Assembly: GCA_025435555.1 (NCBI GenBank)
Contig: JAIWWG010000045.1
Coordinates: 210,990 to 274,989 of the forward strand
Direction of reading: 5' to 3'
DNA: 64,000 bases
From: Chytriomyces cf. hyalinus JEL632
Taxonomy: Eukaryota; Chytridiomycota; Chytridiomycetes; Chytridiales; Chytriomycetaceae
Shown: in pieces, positions 11,621 to 61,289 of the stretch
How the letters are laid out: every line of letters starts with the position of its first letter
Position numbering within the stretch: position 1 is the stretch's first letter
Program-made: the position numbers and the translations under genes
The notes under the pieces: model-generated
Told to the model about the DNA's origin: nothing
Databases searched by the model: none
What the model saw: only the letters and a program-made list of their open reading frames with translations

Positions 11621-13048
11621 TCAGCGATCAGAAATGCCGAAGCTGAACACTGGCACTGTATTGTCAAGAGCTACCAGTCTTGCCTCCAACGGTACCATGA
11701 ATCTTTCCGGCCCAGAGAGGAGAATGCGGCAAGCTTCCTTATTGCTACTAAAGGCGCGGATGCTCTCTGCTGTCACCACTTCGCCATCCAAAAAGTACTT
11801 GATTTCATTACTGAAGCGGGAAGGAGATGTTTGAACAAGGTCTTGCAACACGTTCTCCAAGAAAGCGTCCTCGGCGTTGCGGATGCTGAAGATGAGGTGG
11901 ATACGCGTTTTGTCGGCCGGGTTTTTGAGAATGTAGCGCGCAATGTTGATCATGGGGGTAATCCCGGTTCCAGAGGCCGCCATCAACAGGAGCGAGTGCT
12001 GGTTAGCTTGGTAGTCGAAGGCTTCGAGGCAGTGCGACACTTCAAAAACAGCTGGCTCCTTTGTCTCATCGTTTGTGACGCTTGATTGCAGGATTGAGGA
12101 CATGGCACCGTTGGGGACCAGGCGAATTACTAGCTCGACTAAGCCCGCCTCCATATTCGAGCGGGTTGTAATTGGCGTGTAGTTGCGCGTGGTTGTTTTG
12201 CCGTTCACTTTCGCACGAAGGGAAATATGTTCACCGAGACCTGTGATAATTGCCTTGCCATTTAACTGAAACACAACACGAAGAACACTCTTGTTGAGCA
12301 TTTCGACGCGAGATACTTTTGCAGGTGTGAATGGGTTCCTATCAAAAAAGTTGATCATTGACTTTTCCTGTCCAGTCAGGAACGGAATCCCTGCGGCAGT
12401 GACAAGTGGAGCGCGCGCATTGTCCTCGAAATAAAGAAACAGTTCCACGGCCATGATTCCAACCAAAAATGTGAACCACATTCCGCCTTTGAGTGCTTCT
12501 GCGATGCGTGGTTGGACTTGATCGATTGAAGTGACTGTCCAAGGTGCCGCAAGGATTGATACTACAGGACGCATCCAGATGATGGAGTTGGCGAACCCAA
12601 ATGCGCGAATGTTCATGCGGCGGTGGAGTGTCACGTCGCCGTTGATGATTGCCTTGTAGGAAAGGTAGTTTGCCCAGAGCCAGAGTGGACCAGTCAGGAT
12701 CACAACGAGCCATGCGGACATGCCCGTCTCCGAACCGCCGACGAGGATTGGGATGAGGGAAAGCATGGATAGGATGGATAATGCAAAGTAGATGTATCCA
12801 GAGATTTTGTGGAGGGTTTTGTACTTGCGACGGAGGGTTGAGTTGAATTGGATGAGACCTGATAGGAAAAAGAGAGAGCCTACGGACGCGTGGCTGTAGA
12901 AACCGACTCTTGCTGTGGGTGATGGGTAGTTGGAGACTTTGTCGAATATGGTCCGGTATAGGATGATGTAGAAGAAGATGAAGTAGACGGTGATGGCTAC
13001 AGAGAGCCAGTAGAATGCGCGGGAGAACTGGGCGACAGTGATGGGCAT
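11621..13048 (-). CDS. DUF2306 membrane domain fused to a flavin/NAD(P)H reductase, copy A
   Basis: A single open frame of 475 residues. Residues 1 to about 210 hold six or so membrane helices of the DUF2306 type, with the conserved histidines that could bind haem: YSHASVGSLFFLSG, LHKISGYIYF and LHRRMNIRAFGFA. Residues from about 240 form a ferredoxin/cytochrome b5 reductase-like module: RNYTPITTRS is the FAD-binding R.YT motif, MAASGTGITPMINIARYIL is the NAD(P)-binding glycine motif, and LLSGPERFM sits where the terminal CGPP-like motif belongs. The order suggests electron flow from NAD(P)H through FAD to a membrane haem, so a ferric or quinone reductase role is an inference only. There are no introns, unlike the neighbours. 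It is followed head-to-tail by a close paralogue. The annotated ATG starts MPITVAQFSRAFYW. Confidence 0.75.
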   Translation of the reverse strand: MPITVAQFSRAFYWLSVAITVYFIFFYIILYRTIFDKVSNYPSPTARVGFYSHASVGSLFFLSGLIQFNSTLRRKYKTLHKISGYIYFALSILSMLSLIPILVGGSETGMSAWLVVILTGPLWLWANYLSYKAIINGDVTLHRRMNIRAFGFANSIIWMRPVVSILAAPWTVTSIDQVQPRIAEALKGGMWFTFLVGIMAVELFLYFEDNARAPLVTAAGIPFLTGQEKSMINFFDRNPFTPAKVSRVEMLNKSVLRVVFQLNGKAIITGLGEHISLRAKVNGKTTTRNYTPITTRSNMEAGLVELVIRLVPNGAMSSILQSSVTNDETKEPAVFEVSHCLEAFDYQANQHSLLLMAASGTGITPMINIARYILKNPADKTRIHLIFSIRNAEDAFLENVLQDLVQTSPSRFSNEIKYFLDGEVVTAESIRAFSSNKEACRILLSGPERFMVPLEARLVALDNTVPVFSFGISDR

Positions 13049-13359
13049 TGTGGTAGTGGGTGTTGTTGGATTCTGTGTTGTTGCTTGAAGGATTTGTCAT
13101 GAATCAAGCTCGCTTATATAAACTGGAGGCGGAAATAGCGCTTTTGCCGATCCGTTAACCCTTTTTTTATTCTACAGGCATGAGCAGGGTTTGTGTGTGA
13201 GCCAATAGCAGCCACGTGGGGCAAGAATGCTGTTTGAGAATAACGAGCTGTGTTCTTGATCAGGCAAACTGAACCAAAAAAAAATATACTGCCGAGTACT
13301 CGTGAAGAAGATTCCTTTAAAAACTTCAGTTTATTTTCAGTCGGTAACAATAAGAATTT

Positions 13360-14790
13360 TCAGCGGTCAGAAACACCGAAACTTAACACCTGCACAGCCT
13401 TATCCAACTTAACCAGGCTCGCTTCCAACGGTCGCATGAACGTTTCAGGGCCCGAGAGAAGAATACGCGAGGACGTTTCCTTGCTTGTAAAACCGTGAAT
13501 GGACTCTGCCGTCACAACATCTAAAAAGAGTTTCACTTCATAACTGAAGCGAGAAGGCGAGACGGTTTGTTGAACAAGATCTTTCAAAATGTTTTCCAAG
13601 AACGTGTCCTCGGCATTGCGGACGCTGAAGATAAGGTGGATACGCGTTTTGTCGGCCGGGTTTTTGAGAATGTAACGCGCAATGTTGATCATCGGTGTAA
13701 TCCCGGTTCCGGCGGCTGCCATCAAAATGAATGCATATTTGTTGGCTTGGTAATCGAAGGCTTCGAGGCAGTGCGATATTTGGAATGCAGGAAGTTCCTT
13801 TGTCGTATCGTTTGTGACGCTTGATTGCAGGATTGAGGACATGGCACCGTTGGGGACCAGGCGAATTACCAGCTCGACTAAGCCCGCCTCCATATTCGAG
13901 CGGGTTGTAATTGGCGTGTAGTTGCGCGTGGTTTTCTTTCCGCTGACTTTTGCGCGAAGGGAAATATGTTCGCCGGGACCCGTGATGATTGCCTTACCCT
14001 CCAAATGAAACACAATTCGGAGAACGCTTTTGTTGAGCATTTCAAAGACAACTACTTTTGCCGGTGTGAATGGGTTTCTGTCAAACAAGCTGAGCGCGGC
14101 CTTTTCCTGGGAGGTCAAGAATCGGGAACCCGTTTCGGCGCTGACAAGTGGTGCTCGGGTTTTGTCTTCGTAGTGGAGATACAGCTCGACGGCCATTATT
14201 TCAATCAAGACAGTGAACCACATGACGCTTTTCAATGCCTCGGAGATTCGCGGTTGAACCTCGTCGAAGGAGGTGACTGACCAAGGAGCCGACAGTAGAG
14301 AAACGATAGGCCGCATCCAGATGATTGAGCAAGCGAATCCGAATGCGCGTATGTTCATGCGGCGGTGGAGTGTCACATCGCCGTTGATGATGGCTTTGTA
14401 GGAAAGGTAGTTTGCCCAGAGCCACAGCGGGCCAGTGAGGATTGCGAATAGCCATGCGGAAATTCCCGTCTCTGCGCCGCCGATGAGGAGTGGAATGAGG
14501 GAGAGAATCACGAGGATGGACATGGTGAAGTAAAAGTATCCGCAAATCTTGTGGAGGGTTTTGTACTTGTGGCGTAGGGTTGCGTTGAATTGGATGAGGC
14601 CGGACAAGAAGAAGAGGGAACCCACGGACGCGTGGCTGTAGAAACCAATTCTCGCAGTGGGCGCCGGGTAGTTGGACACCTTGTCTTGGACGATCCGAAA
14701 GAAGACCAGGTAAAGCGCAATGAACAGGGTGATGATAACTACAGTGATCCAGTAGCACGCGTTGGAAAACTTGCGGACTGTGATGGCCAT
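13360..14790 (-). CDS. DUF2306 membrane domain fused to a flavin/NAD(P)H reductase, copy B
   Basis: The intronless 476-residue tandem paralogue of the gene at 11621-13048. The membrane half keeps GFYSHASVGSLFFLSGLIQF, LHKICGYFYF and HRRMNIRAFGFA, and the reductase half keeps TRNYTPITTRS, MAAAGTGITPMINIARYIL and LLSGPETFM. Whole blocks of 20-30 residues are identical between the two copies, including the stretch around GLVELVIRLVPNGAM, so the duplication is recent or under gene conversion. Divergence concentrates near the domain linker and in the last 60 residues. Copy B lies upstream of copy A on the same strand with about 310 bp between, enough for a separate promoter. The first ATG (MAITVRKFSNACYW) matches the start of copy A, which supports both starts. 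Confidence 0.75.
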   Translation of the reverse strand: MAITVRKFSNACYWITVVIITLFIALYLVFFRIVQDKVSNYPAPTARIGFYSHASVGSLFFLSGLIQFNATLRHKYKTLHKICGYFYFTMSILVILSLIPLLIGGAETGISAWLFAILTGPLWLWANYLSYKAIINGDVTLHRRMNIRAFGFACSIIWMRPIVSLLSAPWSVTSFDEVQPRISEALKSVMWFTVLIEIMAVELYLHYEDKTRAPLVSAETGSRFLTSQEKAALSLFDRNPFTPAKVVVFEMLNKSVLRIVFHLEGKAIITGPGEHISLRAKVSGKKTTRNYTPITTRSNMEAGLVELVIRLVPNGAMSSILQSSVTNDTTKELPAFQISHCLEAFDYQANKYAFILMAAAGTGITPMINIARYILKNPADKTRIHLIFSVRNAEDTFLENILKDLVQQTVSPSRFSYEVKLFLDVVTAESIHGFTSKETSSRILLSGPETFMRPLEASLVKLDKAVQVLSFGVSDR

Positions 14791-15178
14791 TTTTGGTTTG
14801 GTTGTAAGTTGTGGAGTATTTGTGTTTGTTTGTGTTGGTAGATGGGAACAGGGTCTTGCGTGGGTTGCTTCTTATAGACACGGTAAATCGTGGAACTGGT
14901 TGGGGGGATAAGCGCGGCGCTGGGTTGGAAAGGAGCGCTGTAGCTGCTTAGGCGCTCCTCCGGCGGAGACAGCGCTTTTCGTTCCGGTCTATTTGGAAAG
15001 CGTGGGAAAGAATTTCCACCGCAAATATTGATTGAGTACCACGCATTCGGTTCAGAGAGGCCGCGGCTGTTGGTGCATAGCGCTGGACTGTGTTGGAGTC
15101 AGTGTGGGTTAAATTTAAATATATTTCACCTCGAAACATTTTTATTTAACAAAACAACATAAGCAAAGTCAGGTGGAC
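14791..15178. promoter_or_regulatory. Divergent intergenic region (shared promoter interval)
   Basis: The 388 bp between the minus-strand DUF2306 copy B and the plus-strand Cep57-like gene must hold both promoters. An AT-rich tract with a TTAAATTTAAATATATTTC run lies about 50-70 bases before the Cep57-like ATG. No specific operator is recognised. Confidence 0.35.
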
Positions 15179-18100
15179 ATGACCTCACCAGGGCTGCTTG
15201 ACCTGAGCTTATCCGACCTGGACCGACTCGAACGCGAACTTGAGGACGATATTCTCGGACTGGACGCACGGAGCGAGTCATCGGTGCATTTTGCTGACGC
15301 GCTCTCGTTCTCGTTTGGATACTCGGACCCGGGCATTGATAAGGAGCAGGGCGCCGAGTATTCTGGCAGATTTGATGTGCCCAATTTGGGGCTTGGGAGT
15401 GAGAATCGGGGTGGGAGGTATATATCGAATCGGGGTAGCCAGAATCCGGACATTGTCTTGAATCAGAACAGATTCGGCGAGTCTTCTTCAGCGGCACTTG
15501 AGAGCGCTACTTCACTTGGTACTCAGGGAGACGAGCATAGCATTCAGATTAGAGTCACGCGTCCCTCTGTTGCTGGGTCTGGGATCCGCGGTCGTGGGGA
15601 CCAGTCTGAAATACCGACGTCTCGGTGGCCGTCGAACGATATCCGACACAGTTCAGAGAAGGCCGATGTAGCTTACTTTGCGTCGAATAACTCGCGCTTG
15701 CCCTCTTCCGCCGACTTTGCCAACGCAGATTCTGTCGCATTCAATGACACCAACTCTCGATTTGACGCTCAACCAACCCCCTCTTCAAATACGAATCTTT
15801 ATTCAAACTCAAACTTAAAAAATACAAACGTGCGGCAGTCTCCATCGCCCCCAAAATCGCATTCTTTTCAACAGCCTGTTTTGAGTTCATCTTCGAATCA
15901 TATCCCTCGTGCGCAAGTATCCAGTCAACGTATAAATACAGGCGCGAGATCTGAATTTCTGCAAACATCAATGAATTCTCCAACCAAATCTGTGGACTTG
16001 CAAAAATCTGCAAAGCATTTGAACGAGTCGACTTCAAATGTTACCGCGGTGCGCTCTGCGGCGAAAGTGAATCTCTTGAAACCGACAACATCTCCTGGGA
16101 ATTTTTATCGCTCTAGGGATACAAATTCATCGGACAGTTCACCGGGAAATTCATCTTCTCTGAACCCTGTGGGTGGAATGCATTTGGCGCCTTCTCACGC
16201 GGGGGATCGGTCTGCAAACATATCCACAACCGTACTCAGCGAAAATCAAAATTCGAGCACGAAACGTGGAGTGTTTAGTGCGAGAGATTTCATGCCGCCG
16301 AAACAAGCATACCCTGAGAAGGAACGATCGACAACGAACCGCGTTGCATCATCAATCACATCGAATTCAACTGCCGTGTTGAAATCTCCGTCGGTTGTGA
16401 GTTCCAAAGGTGTGTCACTGGCCACGTCTCCGGTGAAATCTGCGAGTCCTTTGGGGTTGCATGTTGTGCATGGAAATTCGTCAAATTCGTGGATTGAGAG
16501 TGTGTCGCCTCCTTCGTTTTTGCGGCAGAGTGGAAGTGCGAATGATACGCGGAATCCGTCGAAAATTGGTGCTGCTGATAGAGAGGAACAACAAAGGAAC
16601 TTTTTCAATCAAAATTCGCAATTGGGTTCAACTGTGAAACCTCGACGTGCAAGTGAGGCGCCAAAATCTGCATCTTATCCGGTATGGTCTGGATCCGTCC
16701 AAGCGCAAGTAGATAAGGCAGGGCAAACGTTGAAACATGCGGTTTCAATGGATGGCGGATTTCAGAAAGGGAAGGAGACGGAACAGCATCGACGGAGTTT
16801 TAATGAGAAGGATCCGGCTCAGTTAAACTCTGTGTACGAGCAGAGAGAGTTTGGGAGCCCTGGCGCGGCTGCATCAAGTCAGTTTGGTTCGCCTGTGACG
16901 CCTTCACGGGCAAGGACGGCGAGTGTCTCTGTGTCTCGAAGGGAAATGGGGTCGCGCGCGCTGAATCCTGCTGCAACGACTCCTGGCAGGGGTGCAACTG
17001 ATTTTGCGATGGGTTCCTTTTCGGATAGACCGCCTTTGGAGTCTCCGGTGCAGGGAACGGGTGGAAGCGTGTATTCTTCTCATCAGGAGGTGTCAAAGGA
17101 ATGGAGGCAGGACAAGTTTCAGGTATGGTTGTTCCTGTTGTGATTTGACGATTGCATTCTCACGATATTGAACATGCAGCATAAAACAAATCACGAACTA
17201 TCAACTGATTCCAGTTTGTCGCCCTCAAGCAATTACCTTGCCAATGCGAGAGACGTTTTCCATCAACCCAACGAAAACGGAAAACTCAATCAGGGGGGCA
17301 AGGGTCGCTCATCGTCCAATCATAGTTTAAAAGATTCGAAAACAAATTTGTCAAGAAGCCGCGATAGTTTTCCTGCAGGGAGTAGAGAGAATTTGGGTTA
17401 TGAAACGGGGGTCAAGACAACTGGATCGCTTTTTAATTCGAGCGTGACGCGACTGGAGCAAACCAATCCTGTAGTGTATGAACACGGGAGGTTAAATTCG
17501 ACGCGGCATCTGGACAGCGACATTTCTGAACGATTCGAGAAGCTAATTGCTGAAGAAATTGCTGAAGTTGAACGAAAATTGGTATTTATCATTTATTGTG
17601 TGAAACGCGTGACTTACGCTTGTGTTGTGCAGGAATCGGAAAGAATGAGATATTCCATGGAGCCATCGGATCCATGGACTACAGAAAATCCTGCGCTTTC
17701 ACGTCCACCTTCTCGAGCAATGTCTGCTGCTGGACTCCATCGTGCTGAAGGAACCATATCATCTCGAAATTTATCGCGCTCTCCTTCGAGACCGACTCTG
17801 CCACAACCACCGTCTCGAACGATATCTGCTTCTGGATTGAATCGAAAGGAGGGTGTTGCAAGATCTCAAAATCCATCTCGCTCTCCTTCACGTCCGAGTC
17901 TTTTGTCGAACCCACTGACTTCAGAACAATCCCATTTACCGTCGACGGAACCATTTCAAAGTGAAGGCAGGTTTTTGGAACGAAAGCGAACCGAAGTACC
18001 TCGTTCTCGATCTGCATCACGGTCGCCATCTCGACCCACGCTTTCACCGGATTATGACACGCGATCCGGATCGCCTGTGAAGAATTCCGGATCTCTGGGA

Positions 18101-21049
18101 AATTTTTCAGTGGCATCGGCATCGCGAACCAATTTACCCGCGCGTGCGCAAAATGCAAGTCTGAAAATGAATGCATCTCACTCGTCGTTGATGATTGACG
18201 AGAGAGATCGATTTGCATCCACCGGATCGATTGGGAAACTTTCACAGAATGATTTGCAGAGTCATGAAATGTTTCGAGGACGTGCGAGGCAGCGAAGTCG
18301 GAGTCCAGTGAGTTTTGAGGGTGGTGGAATAGATGAAATGAGTGAGCCAACGAATTTTGCGAATGCGAGTCCAATGTATTCTGAGAGTCAGGCTTCACCG
18401 CAATTGCTGAAAATGCGTGAAATGAGGGATGATAGTGATGGAGAAAGAATCTTTCAGTTGCCTCAAAGACAGAGTCATGGTGTTTTTCCATCGACGGATC
18501 CAATTTCGAAACCTCCTCGGCCATATGGTATTCAAACGAGCGATTTGTTGGCAAAAATGCCGTCGCAACCTGCTGCACCTCCTTCAGCAGTCTCTCATCA
18601 AAGCTCACTGACGTCTTTGGGTGGTAGTGGTCCTGGAGCTACGCCGAATTTAGCTGAGCTTGCGAACCCGCTTGTCAAAGGGTCCCACATGAATTTGACT
18701 GAGCAAGGTCCGTCGATGATTCCGAGTGTTGTGGATAAAGTGGAAGCTGGTGGGAAGAGGCGGTTGTTGGGGCATTTGCCTGAAGATGAGGGCAGTAAAG
18801 GTGGGTACCTGGTTTTGGTCGGTTAATAATATGAATTAACCGGCACTTTTTTATTGATTGCTGTTAGCGGTGACACATGCATTACGCACGCTGCAAGAAA
18901 AAGTTTCAATGCTGGAAGGGGAGAGGGAAAGGGCGAGGAATTTGATTGACACTTTGGAACATGATTTGAATGCCACGCGTCAGATTTTGGTGAATGAGCG
19001 AAGTCGAGGAAATAGTAGTGCGCCTGTTCAGCGGCAGCAGCGATTGGAAGAAACGGATACACATCCATCTCCGTCGTCGGCCCATTCGCGGATCCCGCGC
19101 GAAAGAGTTTATGTGTTTCCACAAGAAGAGGATATGAATGCACGATCAGGTTTGTTGTTAAAATGGTTCCTTTACATTTGAGAAGGGTTTTTAACTTGAT
19201 TTCGTTGTAAAGAACTGGAATCTGAATTGGAAACTGCCAAAAGACGAGCATTTGTTCTCGAACGCCAGTTGGACCGTTTCCGTGACTTGCAGCACTTGAC
19301 AGCATCTGAGCGTGATGATGCGCTTTTGGAAATGCGTCTTTTGAAAGAGCGGATTCGGAATGGAGAGCGCCGTCTTTCAATGATTCACGATGCGAGAGCA
19401 ACGTCTAAATCGCGCCATCGCTCACGATCCAATTCTCGATCCCGGTCTCGCAAGTTTTCGGCAAATGCGAACCATTTTGAGGATACCGGTGAAGAAGCTG
19501 ACATGGAAAATGTGGACATGTTGAATGCTGTTGAGCAGCAGCCACCACGTTCTACCTTGGAGACTTCAACTGTGAACGATAGTTTTTTGGAGAAGGAGGA
19601 TATTCAGGGGGTTTTGAGTGAGATCGAGTTTGTGAGGAGGAGAGGGAAAGATGGGGTTATGAAGATTGTTGCGGCGGCGAGAGATACGCAAGCACAGCCC
19701 GTGTCGAGGATTGGATTGAAGGAATTGGATGGAAGGCGGAGAGGTGATTCTTCTAAGCCTTTGCAACATGGTCGTTCGGCGGTGCAGGTGATTCTCGTTT
19801 GGAAGAGTTGAATGGACGGGGTCAAGATTAACTGGGTTTTTGCATAGGACCCAAAATGGAAAAGAATCGATCCGTATCGCTCCACGGCTCCGACAAATAT
19901 TGCGAGTGTGAACAGACAGACGCATAACAGATCGCTTTCAAGAGGCAGAAGTTCATCGCACGGCGCAGCAGCGGATACAGAGTATGCGCGGGACATGCCT
20001 TTTGTTGTTGGAATGGTTTGTTGTGTTTTTTTTGGAAGATGAGATGTGAATTCATTGTTCCTTTTTTTTCTTTGGACCAGAGCACAAACAAGTCTCACTC
20101 AGTAACGGCGAATTTACAGTCAGTGTACGCATTGTTGAAATCGCATAATCCTGCGCTGTGTTCTGTTTGTACGATGCGGAAGAAGAGGGCGGCGTCAGGT
20201 GCGAGTGTTCGTCTTGTTTGATAACGTGTTTTTCGATCAAATGACCATTGTCTTCCTCAAAAGCTGCTCGCTCGCGTTCTCCAAGTCATTCCCGGCCACA
20301 ACACGAAGACCAGGCAATCCATCATGAAAAAATTGCAGCTGCCGTTGGGACTGGATTTGAAGATTCCGGGAAATTGAAATCGGTGTTGACGAAATTGCAG
20401 CAGGATTTTCATCGATTGAAATTGTGAGTGGTTTTGAGTTTCTGCCTGATGCAATGCTGATTTTGTTTATTTGGGGGGATGGATAGGCATTATCATAGTT
20501 TGGTGCAGTATTATGATTCTGTATCTGAAGATCTTGCTCGATCCAAGAAACCAAAGTCGGAAAAGGCTCGGTTGCATGAAATTGGACGTGAACTCAAAGA
20601 AATTATTCAGCGAATGGAGGCGAAGGTGTGACTTGCACTTTTCGAAAATGCCGTGTAATTTTCTCACTATCCACATTTTGTACCAGAGTGATCAGATTTC
20701 GATTTTGAGGGACATCTTGTCTGGCTACAAGTCAGAAGGTTCGTTCAAGGCCGGTCGAGCTGAAAAGGGTGCGAAACATCCAATAAGCGGAACTCGCTCC
20801 AAAACCCCACTTCCATCGCGAGCGCCACAACTAAACGATCGTCACAGCCCATTCGCTCAGAATTTGGATGAGTATCAGCGTGAGCACGCGATAAATGGAG
20901 TGGAGGAAGGCACTGAGAAGGGAAGATGGGCTTCCAGTCAACCCAGCGTTTCAAATCGGAGCTGTAGCCCAAATCGGAAAGCTGCCAGTCTGACTCTGTT
21001 AAGGAGTAGTTTGAAAGTGCAGCAAGCTTTCGGCGATGCCAGAAAATAG
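15179..21049 (+). CDS. Cep57-family centrosomal protein with a very long disordered N-terminus
   Basis: Ten exons join in frame: 15179-17122, 17180-17581, 17633-18800, 18868-19149, 19213-19787, 19848-20015, 20081-20198, 20264-20423, 20487-20625 and 20687-21049, giving 1772 residues. The first 1170 or so are serine-, asparagine- and proline-rich and probably disordered, with repeated SRSPSRPTL-like segments. Then comes the Cep57 centrosome-localisation coiled coil (HALRTLQEKVSMLEGERERA, then ELESELETAKRRAFVLERQL). The C-terminal microtubule-binding part has HSVTANLQSVYALLKSHNP, a C..C pair, SVLTKLQQDFHRLK and a final coil ending RMEAKSDQISILRDIL, which matches the family's RMEAKGEQIS.L signature. 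Animal Cep57 is about 500 residues, so the N-terminal extension is unusual. It likely acts at the centriole/basal body. The nominal start two codons earlier is GTG; ATG 15179 is used here. Confidence 0.75.
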
Positions 21050-28696: not shown

Positions 28697-29052
28697 AGCT
28701 TGGCTACTGTTGTGAAATATAAATGTATGAAAAAGTGTCTGGCTTTGTGGCCGCGATTTTGTGGGCTCTTTCAGAAAGGATGCACGCGCTGGTGATGAAT
28801 GTGTTCTATTCGGGGTCTTATTATTCTAGGAGCATTTTAAAATATGAACAAGAGATTCAGTTGGGCAGGATATCTTGATGGATGGTCAGGAGTTGGGTGC
28901 GGCTTGAGTCAGATTTTTTATTTTTATTTATTTTGGGTCACATATTGATAGTTCACGGCTGACAAAGTGTTTCACACAAACAGGTCTGTCCTTCCCGCAT
29001 CCGACCGGGACCCATTTGCAAGAACCGAAAACTACCCATCTGAATCCAAAAC
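28697..29052. other. Intergenic stretch
   Basis: This is the 3' region of the Timeless gene and the promoter side of the DMT transporter. It is AT-rich near 28910-28930. No feature is supported. Confidence 0.5.
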
Positions 29053-30206
29053 ATGGCCGTTGACTGGACCATAATCTTCCCGCTTATCGTTGGCGGTCTC
29101 ATTACATTCCAAGGCGCAACAAGTACCGTCCTGGGAAGGATCGGCGGCCCTGCCTTTGCAACATGGTTCGTATTCACCGTATCAATCCTGCCAGCCCTCA
29201 TTCTATTCCTCGTTGAAACGAAAGCCGGCGCAACCGTAAACTTTGCCCAAGGCGCCGCAAATGCACCGTGGTTCTCATACTTTGGCGGATTCATGGGTCC
29301 ATTTGTTGTCTGGTCCGTGCTCACGTGTGTTCCTGAGATTGGAGTGAACCTGTGTTTCTCGATTCAAGTGTCGGCGCAATTGTTCAATGCGTTGTTGTCG
29401 CAGCATTTTGGGATTATTGGGGTCGTGAAGAGGGATACGAGTGTTGGAATGATTGTGGGGTTTACAATGACTGTTGCTGGTGTGGTGGTGATTTTAATTG
29501 CGCGGTTAAGGTCGACTCAACTGGTGCCTGTGAAAGACGCGGAATCATCGACAAGATCGATTAACGCGTCCGAAAGTACGCCCGAGAGTATCGAATTTCT
29601 CGCAACCGACGATTCTGTTGTACCGGATTCATTGGAAAAGGAACACAGGCAAAATGAGGCACCACCAAAGCCAGCAGCTATCTCGCTCCTCAGATACGGC
29701 TTTTGTATCCTGATAAGTGTCCTTTCTGGGATGGGAGAGTCGATGCAAGCTGGAATGAACTCGACGTTGGGGATGCATTACGGCAGCGCCGGATTTGCAA
29801 CGTTGATTGTTGCCTGTGTCTCTTTTGTTCCATGTTCAATTGCGTTTGCGATAGAGTATGTGCGGCGGCCGACCAATTTCAGGAAATTCCGTGCAGGTAT
29901 TCTATTTTTTTAACTCCTCATTCTCAAGAAGCACAACTAAAAGTAATCACAACTCCAGAAACACCTTGGTGGTGCTACCCTTGCGGATTCGTGGGATTTG
30001 CTGTCGCAACCATGTTTTCATACCTACCACAGCGTTTGGACTCTTCAGTACTGATGGGCGCCTTTGTTTGCGCACAGGTCCTGTCGTCTTTAGCTGCAGA
30101 TCATTTTGGGTGGATGGAACTTGCAGTAAGTCGTGTGACAATAATGAAGGCATTTGGAGCAACTCTTTTGATTGGCGGAGTGATTGTCATGTCTGTGCTG
30201 AATTAG
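29053..30206 (+). CDS. YdcZ-type DMT-superfamily membrane transporter
   Basis: Two exons, 29053-29896 and 29959-30206, give 363 residues in frame (junction GCAG|GTATTC and CTCCAG|AAAC). It has about ten hydrophobic helices in two homologous halves of five, separated by an acidic loop around residue 170-200. The first half begins IIFPLIVGGLITFQGATSTVLGRIGGPAFATW and the second FCILISVLSGMGESMQAGMNSTLG, the repeated G...Q...N..L pattern of the YdcZ/DUF606 family. It is a plasma-membrane or organellar transporter of unknown substrate. It is convergent with the PolX-like gene, 93 bp apart. Confidence 0.75.
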
Positions 30207-30299: not shown

Positions 30300-31981
30300 T
30301 CACCAGCGCTCATGCGGAGCAATGTATTCCACATTCAAACACTCAAACAACCCCCTTGACAGGACTTCTGATCACTTTCGACGCGTCTCAAACCATCAAA
30401 ACAAAAAAAAAGCTTACCTTTCAGATGAGGGAAAGAATTGTGCATGCGGGTCTGTCTCAGAAATACCAAGAACAGCGTCCCCAGTAACAGTCAATCCTTT
30501 CAATTCAAGCGCATATTCACAAAGTCTATCATTGAACTTTGCTGGTCCTGTCAAATGAAAAACTGTCACAGGCACCTGGTCAAGATGTGCAAAAGTCGCA
30601 TGAAGCCTTGAGAGAAATAAAGTCACGCGTATGCTGGCGATACAAGATTGATAAAACTGATTCACCCCATCATCTCCCTGTTGATTCGAACAAATCCCAG
30701 TACTGCTGGACATGTTTCATCCACCCTGCAAAAGACTTGGAAAATATCAAAACTAGCAAGACGGTCCACTTGCGCAAACCTTCAAAATGCATGCCAGCTT
30801 CATTAAACACGTTTCGAAAATCTTCCACCATGAAATCCAAACTGGATTCTTTGAAGCCATGTTTTAAGTCCAGTTTAGATTGGCGGCAGTTTCTGCACGC
30901 GCATTTCAAAGTTGTAATGCCATCGTCGGTTGATTGAGTGATTCCAGAGGAGGATGGCCTCACGCTGACACACACATCCAGATACACCATGTGGTCTTCT
31001 CCTCGTCGTCGAGCGCCTACTGGTATACAGAATAACTCAACTTGGGCGAGACTTGAGTTTATGCTGAAGATCGCTCGATCGTATTCTAGGTTTGGCGGAG
31101 TAAACCATTGGTCACATCTGAGAGAGGAATAATTACAACCCACCTTGCCTCGACAACACTTCAGGAAACGTTGCTTCAATTTGCCTCATGCGCAGCTCAT
31201 AGCCAGTGTTATCGGGCCATGCCATGGTCCTTTTCCGATGATGCAATTCCAATCCAAACTGTTGCACAGACGTAAGATTCAATTCCGTTACCAATCGCTT
31301 CACCAGTCCAGCGTCAAATGGAACCCGCAATTCAACAAGCGACTCAAATAAATCAGGCAGGCGTTGAGCATCTCGCGCCAAGATGCGTTGAATCAGATCC
31401 CAATCCCAACCAATAAAACCCGTAGCGACAGTGAGAATGCGAGAAACAAGGGTATCACTTGAAGGATCCGAGTGGGAGCCACAAGAGATGACGAGTTCTT
31501 CAATGTCCAGCCTGACAGCGCTTTGATGGGCAGAAACAGCAGCATCGGTGCTGGCGGAGATGGACAAGTCATGGCCAATGCGCATTCGATGCGCGAGGGC
31601 AACTGCATCTTCCAGTGCCCATTCGAGAGATTGCAGTTTCACTTTGAGGGAATTTGAAGGAGACGGTTTCGATACAAGAAGGGAAACAAACACACGTGCC
31701 GTCGATGCCGCGAGCGCGTTTTCGAGAGCAGAGAGTTCTAGAGCGGGACCGTAGAGATGCGGGATCTTTGATTGAGGCGCGTATTCTTTGCTCATGTCGC
31801 TGCCAGCCCGTGGCTCGTCCATCGGTGCTAATGCAGTTGCGGATGGGTCTTGTTGGTCCTGGACGTGCGCCTTTCGCGCTCGGAATGCATCCAGCGCTGA
31901 CTCAGTCACCGTATTCTTGTAAACTGCACCCACATGGTTCGTCTCGTCAAAGATGTACGAATGTACTACAGAGTTGGACAT
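30300..31981 (-). CDS. DNA polymerase X-family homologue with altered catalytic site
   Basis: Exons 31981-31144, 31040-30780, 30725-30704, 30633-30418 and 30354-30300 join in frame to 463 residues. The family fit is in the C-terminal half and follows the Pol beta/lambda order: LTSVQQFGLELHH (thumb/fingers LT..Q..GL.YY), YELRMRQIEATFPEVL, GARRRGED (GSyRRG), YLDVCVSVRP (GDxDvLi), GWMKHVQ (kfMGvcQ), RVTLFL (RvDlr), VFHLTGPAKFNDRLCEYALELKG (LyfTGS..FN...R..A...G), and LFECLNVEYIAPHERW (iF..LGL.Y..P.eR.W). Of the three catalytic aspartates, the first (Y in YLD) and third (T in RVT) are replaced and only the middle one remains. The N-terminal 250 residues are not recognised; a BRCT domain is not evident. 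The protein is probably not an active polymerase. Confidence 0.7.
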
Positions 31982-32033: not shown

Positions 32034-34108
32034 ATGCCATTCGGTTTCTCAGAGCACGACTTTCCGCCAGATTTCCCGTATCGGTCGATTGCGCTGCTGC
32101 TGCTGACTGTGCTTCCAGGTGCGATACCTTCGTTTAACCAAACCACTGACGCTTGTTCTGACTGATCGCCAGAGGTTCTGATCCATTCGATGCTGGGTCC
32201 AACTTACCCTTACATGGTTCGTCATCTGCTTCCAGACGAGGATCGGATCGGTTATTACGCGGGACTTCTTCAGGTGTGCTTACTTTTCTCCGATTGACCT
32301 TTCTAAATGGGTTGTCACCATCAGTCTGCCTATTTCCTCCCGACAATTGTATGCGCACCCGTCATGGGCTTTCTATCAGACAAGTACGGCCGTAAGGTAA
32401 CCCGCAAGTCGGCAACCCGTGTCCCCGTCAATCTTAACACTTTTTTGTTCAAACACAGCCGGTTCTGCTGGCCGGCCTCGCAGGATACGGATGCGGAACA
32501 ATGCTCCTGGGCTTATCACCAAACTACTGGATGTCTGTGGCCTCACTGTTTGTGACGGGTTGTTTTGCTGGGGTAACCTGATCTTGTTGGCCCTTTCAAA
32601 CAACATCCAATTAATTACGTGCCGGTATACTCGATAGAATACAGTAGTTGCCAAGGGAATGATTGGCGAACTCGCAAAGGACGATCGCTCACGCGCACTC
32701 GCGTACTCGGCCTATGGAATCGTCTATGGCATCTGCGGCGTGACTGGTGCCGTTATGGGCGGATACTTGGCTGATCCTCTTCTCTTTGTCGGTAAGATTT
32801 TGTTCCTTACCACTCGCATATCTGTAAACTCTCTCTGATCAGTTTCGACTCTGACCGGTTTCGAAAAATTGAAATACAGGCATCCCCGTCCTTGAAAAGC
32901 TTCCATATCTAGTCGCATGCAGCGTGGGATCATTCACAGCTCTGATATCTGGCCTAGTTGTCCAGTTTTCATTCAGCCACACCTCAAACAAAGGTGCTGA
33001 ATCTTCTTCTCGGCGAGATAAATCAAAGAAAGGCGTCAAGAATTTCGCGTACAACCAAATCTCAACTGCGCTGGATTCAGACAATTCGCTACTTCCGGAT
33101 GACCTTCGAAGTTATAGGCGCAGTTTCGATGAAGCTGGGCATGCGAATCAACGGTTTGAAATGACACAAACAAAGCGCCGCAGTTCCACTGCGGGAAGTG
33201 CATTTCCCAGGGATCGAAACAGCCACGACAATAATGAACAGATTGATTCCGTTTCAGATACAGACTCATTTGACAACTCAACAATCGACCATACTCTCGA
33301 AAACAAAAGCGAATTCTATGTCAAACACATTGCTCCGTACCTCAACCTGATGACAAGCCGAACACTGGTCCCTTTATCCATGTACACTCTGTTTGCGCTT
33401 TCGAATGCCATCTTCTTCACAGCTCTTTCTCTCATTGCCGCTGCTCCCATTGATCGTGGTGGATACAACTTGTCTCAGCGAGTCAGTTTCTGGAGCATGG
33501 CTGGATACGCGTTCATGAAAATTGTCGTCAAAGCGGGATATTTTAAAGCCAACTCTATTTTGGGAACGCGGTGGACGTATCGGCTGGGAGTTGGTGTGAT
33601 GCTTCCAGCCGTGTTATTGATTCCAGCGAGATTTGGTCTTGACTGGCAAGAATATGCGCAGAGTTTGATTTCGTCCAACAACGCAACAACAACTGTGGCT
33701 GACACGGCCGCCCTCATTCTTTCCAATTCAAACACAACCGAAACTACACAAACCGCAAGAGATCTCATTGCTGTGCTTTTTCGACGCTCCTTGTCAGCAA
33801 TATCATCAAAAGGCGCGATTCACATAGGTTACTCTGCCCCAATCACAGCCCTCGTGTTATGCACAACCGTGATGGGTTTCGGGGATGCCTTGACGTACCT
33901 GTCAGTCGTGATGCTCATCACAGACAGTGTTCCCGACACTCAGTATGGACTGATTCATGGACTTGGCGGATGTCTCGCTTCGATTGTCCGCACCATAGGA
34001 CCAACGTTGGGGGGAGTCTTATGGGAAACTGGGGGCGCAAATTGGGTCGTGTTTAGTTGTGTTGCGTTTATTATCGTAACTGAGTTTTCCGTCTCCTTTC
34101 TGAAATAA
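32034..34108 (+). CDS. MFS transporter (ZIFL/YCR023C-like)
   Basis: A gene of about six exons. The protein opens MPFGFSEHDFPPDFPYRS and has about twelve membrane helices. After helix 1 the pattern SMLGPTYPYMVRHL, then IGYYAGLLQSAYFL leads to the MFS motif A, GFLSDKYGRK, joined by splicing to PVLLAGLAGYG. The second half after a long polar loop (about residues 230-310, serine- and charge-rich) includes the YSAPITALVLCTTVMGFGDA segment and GLIHGLGGCLASIVRTIGP. This arrangement is that of plant ZIFL and yeast YCR023C-type facilitators; the substrate is unknown. The 3' end was duplicated into 22330-22680. An AT-rich upstream stretch separates it from the divergent PolX-like gene by only 52 bp. 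Confidence 0.7.
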
Positions 34109-37930: not shown

Positions 37931-40900
37931 CTATGGGAGTTGTTGTTGTTGATCACCACAAGGAGAACAGCTCTCATTCTACAGAGGATTGTCGGTTCTT
38001 GCAAAATCGGGGAAAGGCTCAGGCACCCAAAGCCAGTCTCAGGAAGAAGACTAGTACCCCTGGTACAAAGCCATCAACCATCCTTGAGAAGGCCAAGACA
38101 CCAATTTCATCTAGTAGAAAGGCTTACCAGTCTTTGGAAGCCAAAGTGGAAGAGCTGACCACTCGTTTAGCCAAGTCTGAATCATCTACACCCATACAGA
38201 TCCTGTCTTCCAAGACCAATGGTGAGAAGATCTTCTACCACATGGATATTGTACCCACAAGTGCTTATTCCAATCCACACAAAATCTATCTAGACTCTGG
38301 TGGCAATTGTCACATTGCGCCTGTCGAGCTGGACATCAGTAATGTTCAACATGTAGCTTCCACAACCATCGTCACTGACGCTACTAACGACCAAACACAC
38401 ATACAGGTGGAAGGCGACTTCAACCACCATGTGGGCGGTAAGAATGTCAAGTTTCGGAAAGTCTTACAGTCCGACTAAGTAACTGAGACTCTAATCTCTA
38501 CTTCTGAATGGCTCAAAGGTACATCTGACCAGATCATCATGACTGCTGAAGGTGCCTACTACCAGGAAGATGGATGTGATGCACTTCATGAAGTGGCCAG
38601 GGTTGTAATGGCATGTACCACATGACACCTCTGGTCCAGCTCTCAGTCCAAAAGGCAGCTTCAGCCAACTGGATTGCTGCCTGCAGTAACAAGGCCACAC
38701 CAGACTGCCCCATCCTGTCGGCTACCAGATGCTACAGCAAATTCAAGATGATCATGCACCCTGATGACTTGGCGCAAGCCATGTCAATGGAAGCAGATGC
38801 TCTCGATGTCTCGTCGGCCAACATCTCTGTTGGTGAAGATGCTGACGCTGAATCCAGCATGGAAGTAGAGGTAATCCACATATTCTCCATCATAACACCA
38901 GATCTGCTACCAACTCAACCCAATTACACTCTCAGGATGACATCTAATGTGGAGTCAGAGGTTCTTTTGGACATACACAGGGTTTTTGGACATTTTCATT
39001 TCAAAATGATTTTCCAAACCTTAAAGAGTTTTGGTGGGAAAAAGAATAAACTGATGTTTGATGCCTTAAAACTCTTATCATCTATCAAAGTCTTTCCTAA
39101 GATCACGGAGATTTGTGAAGATTGCGCACGGGGGAAAATCTCTCAAAGCCCAGTCTATGCAACTTCATCCCCCGCTACGCAAAATCTTGGAAGGATACAT
39201 ACTGACTGTGTGCCTCTGGTCCAGGTTCACAATCATGGTCACACACAGACTCAAAAGTGAATCTGAGAACATCCTCAAGTCTACCATCGACACTTGGGAG
39301 CAAGCACATGCACCACTGAAAGTTGGTGCAGTGAGGCATGATGGTGGAGAACTGAGAGACTCGTTCAAACAGTTCTGCAACACACGCACACCTCAAATAG
39401 CTGATGAAACATCACCACCTTACAACAAGGAGTACAACGGGATGGTAGAGAGACATTACGGTGTACACAAAGGCAATGCTATCACGCTGCTGGCCCAGTC
39501 AAATCTACCACTACGTTTCACAAGCTACACCCTCCAGTACTCAATGCATGTCAAAAACTGCATGAATCACCCAGAGGAAATACACACATCCCCTTACGAG
39601 CTTTGGTATGGAAGAGAACCTGATCTGACAAGGATTCAACCCTTTGGCTGCAAAGTCACAGTTTGAACTCACCCTGACCAAAGAAAATCTTTCTACTCAG
39701 ATAGAGGCTCCACAGGGATCTTTCTCGGTTACAACGGTAATTTCCTCTACTGGGTGTATCAAGACAACCGCGTGAAGTCATGCACCAATTTGGCATTCCA
39801 CTCTACCTCATTCCCTGGTATGACCATCACAAGAGGAAACTCAGACATGTTATCTGAGTCTGAACCAGACATCGAGCATGCTCCGAGATATGAGCTAAGG
39901 CCAAGGGTACCTACTACAGCCCCAGCCCCAGTCACACTCGATATACCTGAGATCAGCCCGGCAGAAGATTACCTGGATATCCCTGATGAGGACATGCTAG
40001 TCAATACACCTTCTAAAGGTATCACAGAAGAGCCATCCGAACTCCTATCTGACGATGAATCAGACTTCTCTGAAGTTCACCCTGAAGACTATCTAATACC
40101 CGACAATGTGGAGTGGGAGTTCTCTGAGTATCTATCAGATGAAGAAACACAAACTCCAGTCTATTTATCAGTGGAGACAAGGAAGGAGTTGGAGAAATGG
40201 GAAATAAAGAACATCATCATTTCCAAAGTGGTAGCCAAGCATAAACCCACAAAGAAAAGAGTCCAGACTCAAATTACGGGACCCATTGAAGAACTTCTTG
40301 ATGAGTATCCAAACCCAATAGATACCCCACCAAAAGGATCTATATCCACAAGGTTGACCTGGACACAAAAACGGTGTTGTGGTTCAAAGCCAGACTAGTG
40401 GTAATGGGTCACCTACAACAAGAAGGAGTTGACTACACAGATACACATTCTCCGGTCATTAAAACTCAGTGTCTCTGAATAATGATTGTGGTGGCCATAT
40501 TCTTGAACTACCTCATAGAACAGACTGACATAGATACTGCATACCTAAACTCAGATCTGGACACGGTCAATTACATGTCCATACCAGAAGGATATTCCAT
40601 GAATGATCAAGATGGTAATCCATATATACTACACCTGATGAAGAGCCTCTATGGCCTTCACCAATCAGGTAGACAATGGAACAAACACATTACCGCATCC
40701 CTGATAGAACAAGGATTCAGCAGGGCTAAAACAGATCCATGCCTCTTTTACAAGAGAGGTCAAAAAGGTTTCATTCTACTCTATGTTGATGACCTGATTA
40801 TTATGGCTCTAACTCAAGGGGAGGTAGAAACCATAAAATCCAACCTACAGAAGAATTTCTCAATCAAAGAACTTGGCAAAGCCAAACACATACTTGGTAT

Positions 40901-41955
40901 GACAATTGAGGGAGTCCCCGGCGGGATCTACCTCGGGCAGTATAACTATGCAGAAGAGATTCTGAGTAGCATGAACATGTCTGACTGTGACTCCAAACTT
41001 ACACCCATGGTGGAAGGTTGGAAGCATGACCCCAACAGCCCAAAAGTAAGCCCAGAGAGGAACAAGACATACCACTCATGCACAATGAAGGTAGCTTACT
41101 TGGCAAACTGTACACAACCAGATATCTCATTCACTGTCAACACTCTTGCGCAATACCAAAATGACTGCAGAGAACATGACTGGAATGCACTGATAAGAGT
41201 ACTCAGATACATCAAAGGTACATGGGATCATGGTCTGTTCTATACAAAAGAAAACGGCACAAGTGTTGCCACATTACACACAAACAACACCTCATACTTG
41301 GATGATCCAAAATGGGGTTCAGCTATACCACAAGCCTACGCTGATGCAAGCTACGCAGAAGATACAGGCAGGAAGTCTAGATCTGGACATGTGTTCATGA
41401 TGGCTAATGCTGCAGTTACATGGTTTAGCAAGAAACAGCCAGTAGTTGCTCTCTCTTCCACAGAGGCAGAATACTGTGCCCTAAGTGAAGCTGTCAAAGA
41501 AGCACTATGGGTACGGCAACTGCTAGATGAAGTTGGTGTCAACCTCAATGACCCCACAACCATTCACCAAGACAACATGTCGACCATAGCTATAGCTCTA
41601 AACCCAATACAGCACCAGCGTGTAAAACACATGGATGTAAAGGTACATTTTCTACGAGACCACTTAGACAAGCAGGACGTGAAGATGGTCTACTGTCCTA
41701 CCGAAGACATGGTAGCTGACATAATGACAAAAAGTCTACCTCCAAGACTACACCGCAAATTCATGCAGTTGCTTGGTCTTAGATCATTGGCAGCCCTCAA
41801 GGGTTTGACCAACCACCCATACACAAATGAATGGAAGTTTTGATAAACTCCAGGCGACACAATATGCATCCTCATGTAATTATCGTTTCTCACTTAACAC
41901 AACCAGAATTTAATATGTATTTGCCACATCATTAAGTTATTGCCTGCGGTATACC
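37931..41955 (+). mobile_element. Ty1/copia retrotransposon, full order but broken frames
   Basis: Domains appear in copia order. A gag zinc-knuckle-like end (HHKENSSHSTEDCR) is near 37950. The protease has YLDSGGNCHI near 38290. The integrase zinc region is near 38980-39130 (H...H, then CEDCARGK), with the catalytic region to 39660 (NKEYNGMVERHYG, SPYELWYGREP). Reverse transcriptase starts near 40370 with GVDYTDTHSPVIKT and has LLYVDDLIIM; RNase H has ALSSTEAEYCAL, IHQDNMSTI and HMDVKVHFLRDHL. The last frame, 40482-41843, is long and intact (453 codons). Upstream there are in-frame stops at 38478, 39260, 39666, 40398 and 40480. No matching pair of LTRs is visible around it; the 3' flank stops at 41955 in the sequence CCCTGCGG, where similarity to the inverted copy at 48.8 kb ends. 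Confidence 0.85.
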
Positions 41956-59764: not shown

Positions 59765-61084
59765 TCAATTGTAATGAACAGACCTCCACTCATCCTTAAT
59801 ATAATCTCCACTTCCAATAGACCTCCTCTCAGCAGCAGTATGAAACGATTCCACCGGCGAGAGCAAATCAAACCCGGAACTGTCGCCTCCCGATCCACCA
59901 CTTGAATGAACATCACTGTCACCGCTTCCATTCAGTATAATAAACGTCGCAGAAATTTCACCAGGTTCCATCGGCTTGCTTGACTCGGGAATAATCAAAT
60001 GCCCTTCAACGTTCACAGGAGTTCGCTTTGAGCGTGTTTCATTGGATACAGCGCCGGGAATGGGGCCTTCGCTTCCTAGCACGTGTCCATTGCGTGGAGG
60101 TGCTTGAGTGCACTCCCTGGCGTCATCGCTCATTGAAAGATCGGACGGTACAAGAGATTGTGGGCTGACCGTGAAAGCAGCTGTCATAGCATTATTACGC
60201 CTTTGCATTGAATCGACAAACGCGAGAGATGAGTCGATTTCTGCCAAATGCGCTTCGTATTCGGATTCACTCGGCGCTGAATGCTTTGGAGGTGATTCGA
60301 TTTGTTTGGGTGGATTTGGTATGGACGGAATCACGAGAGCTGGTAAAACTTGACCTGGGCGAGCAGCAACTGGTTGTGAAGAAGACGTGGCGACCATGGT
60401 CTCGAACGAAGACCTGATGTCTTCCTGCGTTATGCACTCCTGCTCCATGTGCTCTGAGGATATTGATGGCACTGAGCTTATTCGCTCTGTCCGACTTGGC
60501 TCCATCACATAGGTAGCATTCCCCAATTCTCCGTCATGACCATTTGACACTGCTAATCTTGCCCTACTCTCATTGTTGATGGTAGAGAGCCCCGATTCCA
60601 GACTTGCACTACCTCTCCTCACCTTCTTATGCGACCTTCGATTCACAATGCACAGCGCCGTTATCCCCAAAAGTACGGCAAGACCAATCACGACAAAAGG
60701 TAGAGCAATAACAAAAGGGCTGGTTTCATGTGAGCTTTCCAGTGTGTTTACCGCAGCAGCTGCTGGCGAGATTAGCGGTTGAGGAGGTGGCACAGTCTCC
60801 GTCAAACGCCCCAGCATCCTGTTCTCATTCCCTGAGTTCACCGTCAGAGTGGAGAATACATCAGTCGAGATACTTGCACTGGCGCTGGTCATGGATTGTG
60901 TGGATTCCGAATCCGAGTTGTCCGAAATATCGCCGGGCTCATCGTCGTCAATTTGGTCGGCTTCACCAGTTTCCAGCAAACCGGACGTAACTGGCAGTGC
61001 ATCCTGCGGTGTTGATGCTGATGCGGTAGTTGCTGGGTATGGTGAAGCATCTGACAGCGTAGCTGCCTGAGTCAAAAATGACAT
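59765..61084 (-). CDS. Single-pass membrane protein with long polar tails
   Basis: An open frame of 439 residues without introns. Residues 1 to about 120 are serine-, threonine- and acid-rich (ASASISTDVFSTLTVN). One membrane helix, SPFVIALPFVVIGLAVLLGITAL, lies at about 124-146, followed by NRRSHKKVRRGS (positive-inside, so the tail is cytoplasmic). The remaining 290 residues are polar, with SIPNPPKQIESPPKHSAP and glycine-serine runs. A mucin-like surface sensor similar in layout to fungal Wsc/Mid2 or plant-like receptors is possible, but no ectodomain or kinase is present and no N-terminal signal peptide is clear. I do not recognise a family. Confidence 0.6.
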   Translation of the reverse strand: MSFLTQAATLSDASPYPATTASASTPQDALPVTSGLLETGEADQIDDDEPGDISDNSDSESTQSMTSASASISTDVFSTLTVNSGNENRMLGRLTETVPPPQPLISPAAAAVNTLESSHETSPFVIALPFVVIGLAVLLGITALCIVNRRSHKKVRRGSASLESGLSTINNESRARLAVSNGHDGELGNATYVMEPSRTERISSVPSISSEHMEQECITQEDIRSSFETMVATSSSQPVAARPGQVLPALVIPSIPNPPKQIESPPKHSAPSESEYEAHLAEIDSSLAFVDSMQRRNNAMTAAFTVSPQSLVPSDLSMSDDARECTQAPPRNGHVLGSEGPIPGAVSNETRSKRTPVNVEGHLIIPESSKPMEPGEISATFIILNGSGDSDVHSSGGSGGDSSGFDLLSPVESFHTAAERRSIGSGDYIKDEWRSVHYN

Positions 61085-61289
61085 GAATGAAGAGCGCGGA
61101 GGGTGATTGCTTCAAGACTTTAATTTTTTGTCCCCTTTCATTCATAATTCTGATTTTGCTTACTTTGAAACGCGGCATTAATTACTCCCGCGCAAATTCT
61201 GTGAGTGCGCGATGAGGTCCTTTTGTTTTCTGGTTATCAAGAATATTTCACGCGTGTGGTGGTGTCACAGCATTTTATTAAAATCGTAA

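Follow-up and report, generated by a model that had tools for sequence, protein, structure and literature searches.

A candidate non-polymerising family X DNA polymerase paralogue in the chytrid Chytriomyces cf. hyalinus JEL632

Family X DNA polymerases (Pol X) with a dead active site are, as such, already known in prokaryotes. Altered-site enzymes make up 27.5% of one prokaryotic set, and two noncanonical bacterial members that were tested are described there as inactive as polymerases (PMC9226535). The same source tells of an earlier report of short extension by one of these altered bacterial enzymes. A bacterial PolX1 with a dead polymerase site is also on record (PMC12926913).

Among the eukaryotic members, Pol lambda and Pol mu are reported to meet Ku through their BRCT domain (PMC12056208). 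Human Pol lambda that is catalytically inactive still supports the bypass of several lesions in translesion synthesis, acting as a scaffold of Pol zeta, and removal of the N-terminal BRCT part left these translesion roles of Pol lambda intact (PMC7898466). Multicellular fungi are said to carry two Pol X, one a precursor of mu and the other of lambda (PMC12828229). No eukaryotic Pol X that naturally lacks the catalytic triad is named among the matches listed in the searched literature, which consisted of titles, starts of abstracts and passages and included few subscription journals.

The window analysed here is the whole stretch of 64,000 nucleotides, part of contig C183 of the genome. A candidate pseudo-Pol X gene occupies positions 31981-30300 on its minus strand, with the ATG at 31981, the last coding base at 30303 and a TGA stop at 30302-30300. 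A first-pass annotation of the same DNA had given these coordinates and this strand, and its start, stop and short GWMKHVQ exon are also those of the splice models. Five exons and four introns yield a predicted protein of 469-478 aa (478 aa in splice model A, 469 aa in model E), laid out as follows.

Exon 1 (residues 1-279), 31144..31981, minus strand: N-terminal region without a recognised domain, then LTSVQQFGLELHH and the start of the F.E...R.E motif.
Intron 1, 31086..31143, minus strand: 58 nt, GTGGGT...CCTAG; joins SRQ/E of the F.E...R.E motif.
Exon 2, 30780..31085, minus strand: opening half of the palm, VGARRRGEDHMVYLDVCVSV; the GDxD positions are occupied by Tyr314 and Asp316.
Intron 2, 30726..30779, minus strand: 54 nt, GTTTGC...TGCAG; frame kept.
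Exon 3 (short), 30704..30725, minus strand: GWMKHVQ.
Intron 3 in model E, 30607..30703, minus strand: 97 nt, GTACTG...CTCAAG; frame kept.
Intron 3 in model A, 30703-30634, minus strand: 70 nt, ...CGCCAG; exon 4 then runs from 30633; frame kept.
Exon 4, 30418..30606, minus strand: RLH/QLH (third Asp replaced by His) and thumb, FHLTGPAKFNDRL..., to SSER.
Intron 4, 30355..30417, minus strand: 63 nt, GTAAGC...TCAAG.
Exon 5 and stop, 30300..30354, minus strand: GLFECLNVEYIAPHERW*, the Pol X-like end ..IF..LGL.Y..P.ER...

The splice models were selected to stay open. Introns 1, 2 and 4 have GT..AG ends and lengths of 54-63 nt, which by eye are like those of introns in neighbouring genes. Family motifs flank introns 1 and 4 on both sides. 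For intron 2 there is a by-eye resemblance only, in that exon 3 continues HFEG into WMKHV, which looks like F.GVC.L of Pol lambda and beta. Exon 4 is supported by PF14791 and by its alignment with Pol mu and with Pol X profiles, and the acceptor of intron 4 was selected because the family C-terminus then results, the protein ending in YIAPHERW. Intron ends in AAG are less usual than those in CAG; they close two of the four introns in model E and one in model A. The first-pass annotation, which had spliced the gene by eye, is upheld in that four introns do give a Pol X-like order, although intron 3 is ambiguous. Its further claim that splicing restores the family order exactly is too strong, as the fingers and the 8-kDa domain have no profile match and there is a 22-aa insertion ahead of the palm. 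This stretch (residues about 249-270) lies between LTSVQQFGLELHH, the motif in exon 1 directly ahead of the palm, and the palm itself, and it is without a counterpart in the other aligned Pol X. It looks coding rather than like a missed intron, because by eye it has no GT donor.

What places this protein in family X? In a Pfam scan of the spliced protein that covered models A, B and C, all three match DNA_pol_B_thumb (PF14791) at E 4.3e-7 to 4.8e-7, with 30 bits against a cut-off of 25 (model A, E 4.6e-7), and nothing beyond the thumb is matched at E<=10. An unspliced six-frame search of the organism's own 37.8 Mb genome with PF14791 (E<=10) finds three places, namely the window locus (E 0.0055) and an intact Pol X that is present twice (E 6.9e-26). 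The match at the window locus covers 241295-241552 of C183, that is 30306-30563 of the window. The thumb assignment does not rest on splicing alone, since this unspliced search finds the locus too. Profile comparison with hhalign extends the evidence. Model E matches a profile of Pol lambda, beta, TdT and mu plus the organism's own lambda-like enzyme at E 1.1e-5 (probability 82), and model A matches four of these five eukaryotic Pol X at E 6e-5 (probability 65). The match drops to E 0.0011 (probability 21) once 52 prokaryotic Pol X are included.

Other searches gave no such match. With the three exon pieces scanned apart and the last exon left out, Pfam gives no Pol X family match, and the exon pieces have no match in NCBIfam. 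The CobW_C_DAAF9 domain that appeared in the separate pieces (E 0.071) was below the cut-off and vanished once the last exon was joined. A phmmer search of the PDB with the full protein returns no Pol X at E<=10. The matches that it does return, such as fatty acid synthase and trypsin, are chance hits, and similar ones were seen with an early by-eye join that was not a GT-AG splice model and was without the last exon. The earlier claim that the protein follows family X through palm and thumb is therefore borne out in part: Pfam supports the thumb and C-terminus, whereas the palm is recognised by motif order alone and its profile score is not significant.

Within the family, the strongest resemblance depends on the comparison. 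A phmmer search of the PDB with the thumb alone (E<=10) retrieves 16 sequences, 12 of which are Pol mu (E 0.2-1.0) and four unrelated proteins; lambda, beta and TdT are absent at this threshold. Single-sequence profiles score the thumb at 15.3 bits for mu, 11.2 for beta, 5.4 for TdT, 2.6 for the own paralogue and 1.3 for lambda. The affinity to Pol mu is weak, because a profile of lambda, beta and the paralogue scores the thumb at 19.1 bits and one of mu and TdT at 16.3. In trees of 18 rows (five eukaryotic Pol X, 12 of the 52 prokaryotic ones and the window protein) the branch of the window protein is 4.5 changes per column long in the thumb and 6 in a longer alignment, and its place is not resolved. 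The nearest enzyme by tree path is Pol mu in the thumb and Pol lambda in the longer alignment. As for the source of the prokaryotic set, genome contigs searched with the intact paralogue alone gave no match, and the same search run with an alignment found 83 prokaryotic relatives; 80 of them were kept. Of the 80, 63 were examined. A motif filter left 54 long ORFs among these, and selection by profile match and length reduced them to 52.

Pol mu, TdT and the fungal mu-like Pol X (Aspergillus fumigatus PolX1, PMC12828229) are like the window protein in the thumb and C-terminus, and in mu and TdT the YALELKG stretch is one residue longer, as it is here. In contrast to mu and TdT, the window protein has lost two catalytic aspartates, its GW steric gate reads HL and a BRCT domain was not found. 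A degenerate mu-like enzyme fits, weakly, with both the two Pol X of multicellular fungi and the thumb likeness to Pol mu. We would therefore suggest, weakly, that the second Pol X of multicellular fungi, the mu-like one, may be represented here by the window protein in degenerate form. The intact enzyme of the same genome is lambda-like (C90:23777-24881 and C177:3643-4747). It keeps GDAD, RRLD and YFTG, matches four Pfam domains (thumb, palm, fingers and HHH_8) and has the family and the thumb in common with the window protein. The window gene is no recent copy of it, because its thumb scores those 2.6 bits against it. The two intact copies are 99.9% identical over the 3.16 kb compared, with the one on C177 near a contig end, and are either a haplotig or a recent duplication.

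The reading that we favour, with a probability of roughly 0.58, is that the window gene encodes a strongly diverged, intron-containing, non-polymerising eukaryotic family X paralogue, kept for a non-catalytic task beside the intact lambda-like Pol X. One question is whether the gene is alive. Exon 1 has no stops in 279 codons, and this open frame alone suggests constraint. The whole-CDS coding score (model E) is 0.176 bits per codon, and the 17 other long ORFs of the window, on which the score was trained, reach 0.106-0.355. For exon 4 the coding frame outscores the two other forward frames; exon 2 scores 0.110 in frame and is exceeded by one reverse frame (0.158). Exon 1 is found once in the own genome and has no relative among viral contigs.

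What if the gene is decaying instead? In this scenario a former Pol X, perhaps mu-like, has lost its function so recently that stops and frameshifts have not yet gathered. The length of the branch (4.5 changes per column for the thumb and 6 for the longer alignment) and the poor conservation of palm and fingers would fit, and the intact Pol X of the genome could cover repair; one Pol X is reported to suffice for budding and fission yeast (PMC12828229). However, 469-478 codons run without a stop, even if the splice models were selected as open, and each of the five alternative frames of exon 1 holds 7-13 stops. Moreover, the structural motifs G..RRG, TG..FN and YI.P.ER are kept while the catalytic ones are lost. 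Such selective loss counts against decay, because neutral drift would not sort structural from catalytic motifs. We regard decay as unlikely, though not far-fetched, and continue to favour a retained, non-catalytic paralogue.

The palm raises another question. Pfam gives no match to the palm family (PF14792). When the palm stretch is shuffled, 113 of 2000 shuffles reach its profile score; the score of all non-thumb sequence is reached by 81 of 1000, and the palm score with a mu/TdT profile by 1041 of 2000. It could accordingly be argued that the Pol X likeness is limited to a thumb-like C-terminus, the only part that is significant and the only one that Pfam recognises, and that what lies upstream is unrelated or newly evolved and never had the palm aspartates. 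An observation that does not fit is the arrangement of motifs. LTSVQQFGL (236-244) and GARRRG (303-308) both fit Pol X invariants, and LT..Q..GL precedes GARRRG in the family order. GARRRG is followed by Y.D at +11/+13, so that GARRRG..Y.D in exon 2 matches the spacing of the invariants G...RG..D.D, and LH stands at -17 from the Thr of LTG, again the family spacing. Shuffles of a 164-aa stretch contain G..RRG in 0.31% of cases, LT..Q..GL in 0.024% and both in order in 0 of 200,000, the two patterns having been written after the sequence was seen. This motif order suggests that the palm may still fold, and we consider a Pol X likeness confined to the thumb improbable.

The catalytic residues themselves bear on activity. 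Counting from G303, the places of the first two aspartates in the eukaryotic set are +11 and +13, which here are Tyr314 and Asp316. This rule gives D and D in 41 of 56 parsed Pol X, the rest pooling parsing errors with truly altered bacterial enzymes. The motif thus reads VYLD, with the first Asp replaced and the second kept, just as the first-pass annotation had it when it read YLD for GDxD. The third aspartate is found 17 residues before the Thr of the FTG/LTG motif. Asp occupies this position in 50 of 56 parsed Pol X (57 were tried) and His in the window protein (H400 in model A, H391 in model E). Both MAFFT and the hhalign path before realignment pair RLH of model A with R-V/L-D and need no gap to do so, and QLH takes the third-Asp place when model E is compared by hhalign with all five eukaryotic Pol X. 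The phmmer alignment with Pol mu starts three residues past this His and is in the same register. The earlier reading of RVT at this site is probably misplaced, although it has one point in its favour, in that realigned hhalign (model A) prefers RVT for the third position and then inserts 7 residues. RVT was set aside because RLH needs no insertion, and the third position is probably His rather than Thr. Either way, every alignment puts non-acidic residues at the first and third positions, so both aspartates are lost and two of the three metal ligands are gone, as first proposed. Together with the thumb match, this supports a protein that is related to family X and whose catalytic triad is broken.

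Could the protein nevertheless be an active nucleotidyltransferase whose triad is altered (Tyr/Asp/His) or whose acidic residues have moved? One Asp is kept, His could in principle hold a metal, and there is the short extension recounted for one altered bacterial Pol X (PMC9226535). However, in model E no D or E is present 11-26 residues upstream of the thumb Thr, the steric gate before TG (YF, HF or GW) is lost and reads HL (HLTGP), and the two noncanonical bacterial enzymes mentioned above are given as inactive in the same source. With metal ligands and steric gate lost, polymerisation is very unlikely, and an active enzyme has very little in its favour. Least credible of all is that hand-splicing or assembly has produced an artefact and that the true gene restores the triad: intron 3 is ambiguous and the splicing is known from DNA alone, but models A, B and C share the same thumb score, and a regex search of the three minus-strand frames over 31200-30400 finds no GDxD-like motif at the palm, its single match, at 30461, being in the thumb (SETD).

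Transporter-like genes flank the Pol X-like gene on the plus strand at 29044-30206 (DMT_YdcZ, E 3.6e-26) and at 32034-34108 (MFS_1, E 8.3e-7, below the cut-off). The latter gene seems to start at 32034, close upstream of the Pol X-like ATG and on the other strand, about 50 bp away by eye, which suggests a promoter region common to the two. An RVT_2-family reverse transcriptase (E 1e-38), of the Copia type, lies at 40479-41840 on the plus strand. Two minus-strand ORFs, 11624-13096 and 13363-14871, have the same domains (DUF2306, FAD_binding_6, NAD_binding_1 and NAD_binding_6) and are a tandem pair of predicted ferric-reductase-like proteins. Long open frames of 674, 560 and 448 codons at 15119-17140 (plus), 17144-18823 (plus) and 59768-61111 (minus) have no Pfam match at E<=0.001. 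Elsewhere in the genome, Ku gives one exon match and radial-spoke genes give 12 on three contigs, the latter in keeping with a flagellated cell.

What might a retained, non-catalytic Pol X do? Its domain content narrows the choice. Neither the helix-hairpin-helix fingers (PF10391) nor the 8-kDa HhH domain (PF14716) is matched at profile sensitivity, and Pfam finds no N-terminal BRCT domain, no C-terminal PHP nuclease domain (the protein ends at the thumb) and no recognised domain in the first 235 residues. A single-sequence AlphaFold model of exon 1 shows mainly helices, and is not usable because its mean pLDDT is 45.6. The noncanonical prokaryotic Pol X are like the window protein in that one to three catalytic aspartates are replaced and the steric gate and GS motif are not conserved. 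However, the C-terminal PHP nuclease is retained in them and the 8-kDa domain in most prokaryotic Pol X, whereas the window protein shows neither.

In the mechanism that we envisage, a protein with this site would be unable to bind two catalytic metals and so would not polymerise. It may have been retained for a task other than catalysis, most likely that of a protein partner or DNA-binding partner when gaps or lesions are repaired, possibly as a scaffold like the one that inactive human Pol lambda is reported to provide for Pol zeta. Given that precedent, a non-catalytic scaffold or gap-binding role is the leading guess, made by analogy. The first-pass annotation had suggested a scaffold in end joining or gap repair. 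The end-joining part is weakened, as recruitment by Ku in the manner of Pol lambda and mu is not to be expected where a BRCT domain is not detected, but a BRCT-independent scaffold does have its precedent in human Pol lambda. A more specific and distinctly tentative version is that an ancient mu-like Pol X of zoosporic fungi, without triad, steric gate or BRCT domain, persists as a non-catalytic partner of repair polymerases.

If true, this would be an independent eukaryotic counterpart of the bacterial noncanonical Pol X. Those dead-site proteins are believed to persist because of their nuclease domain, and here there would be no nuclease domain to explain retention. Such a nuclease-free eukaryotic case would show that the Pol X fold has a job beyond synthesis, as has been argued from the part that inactive human Pol lambda plays in translesion synthesis, and would add to what is known of repair polymerases in early-diverging fungi.
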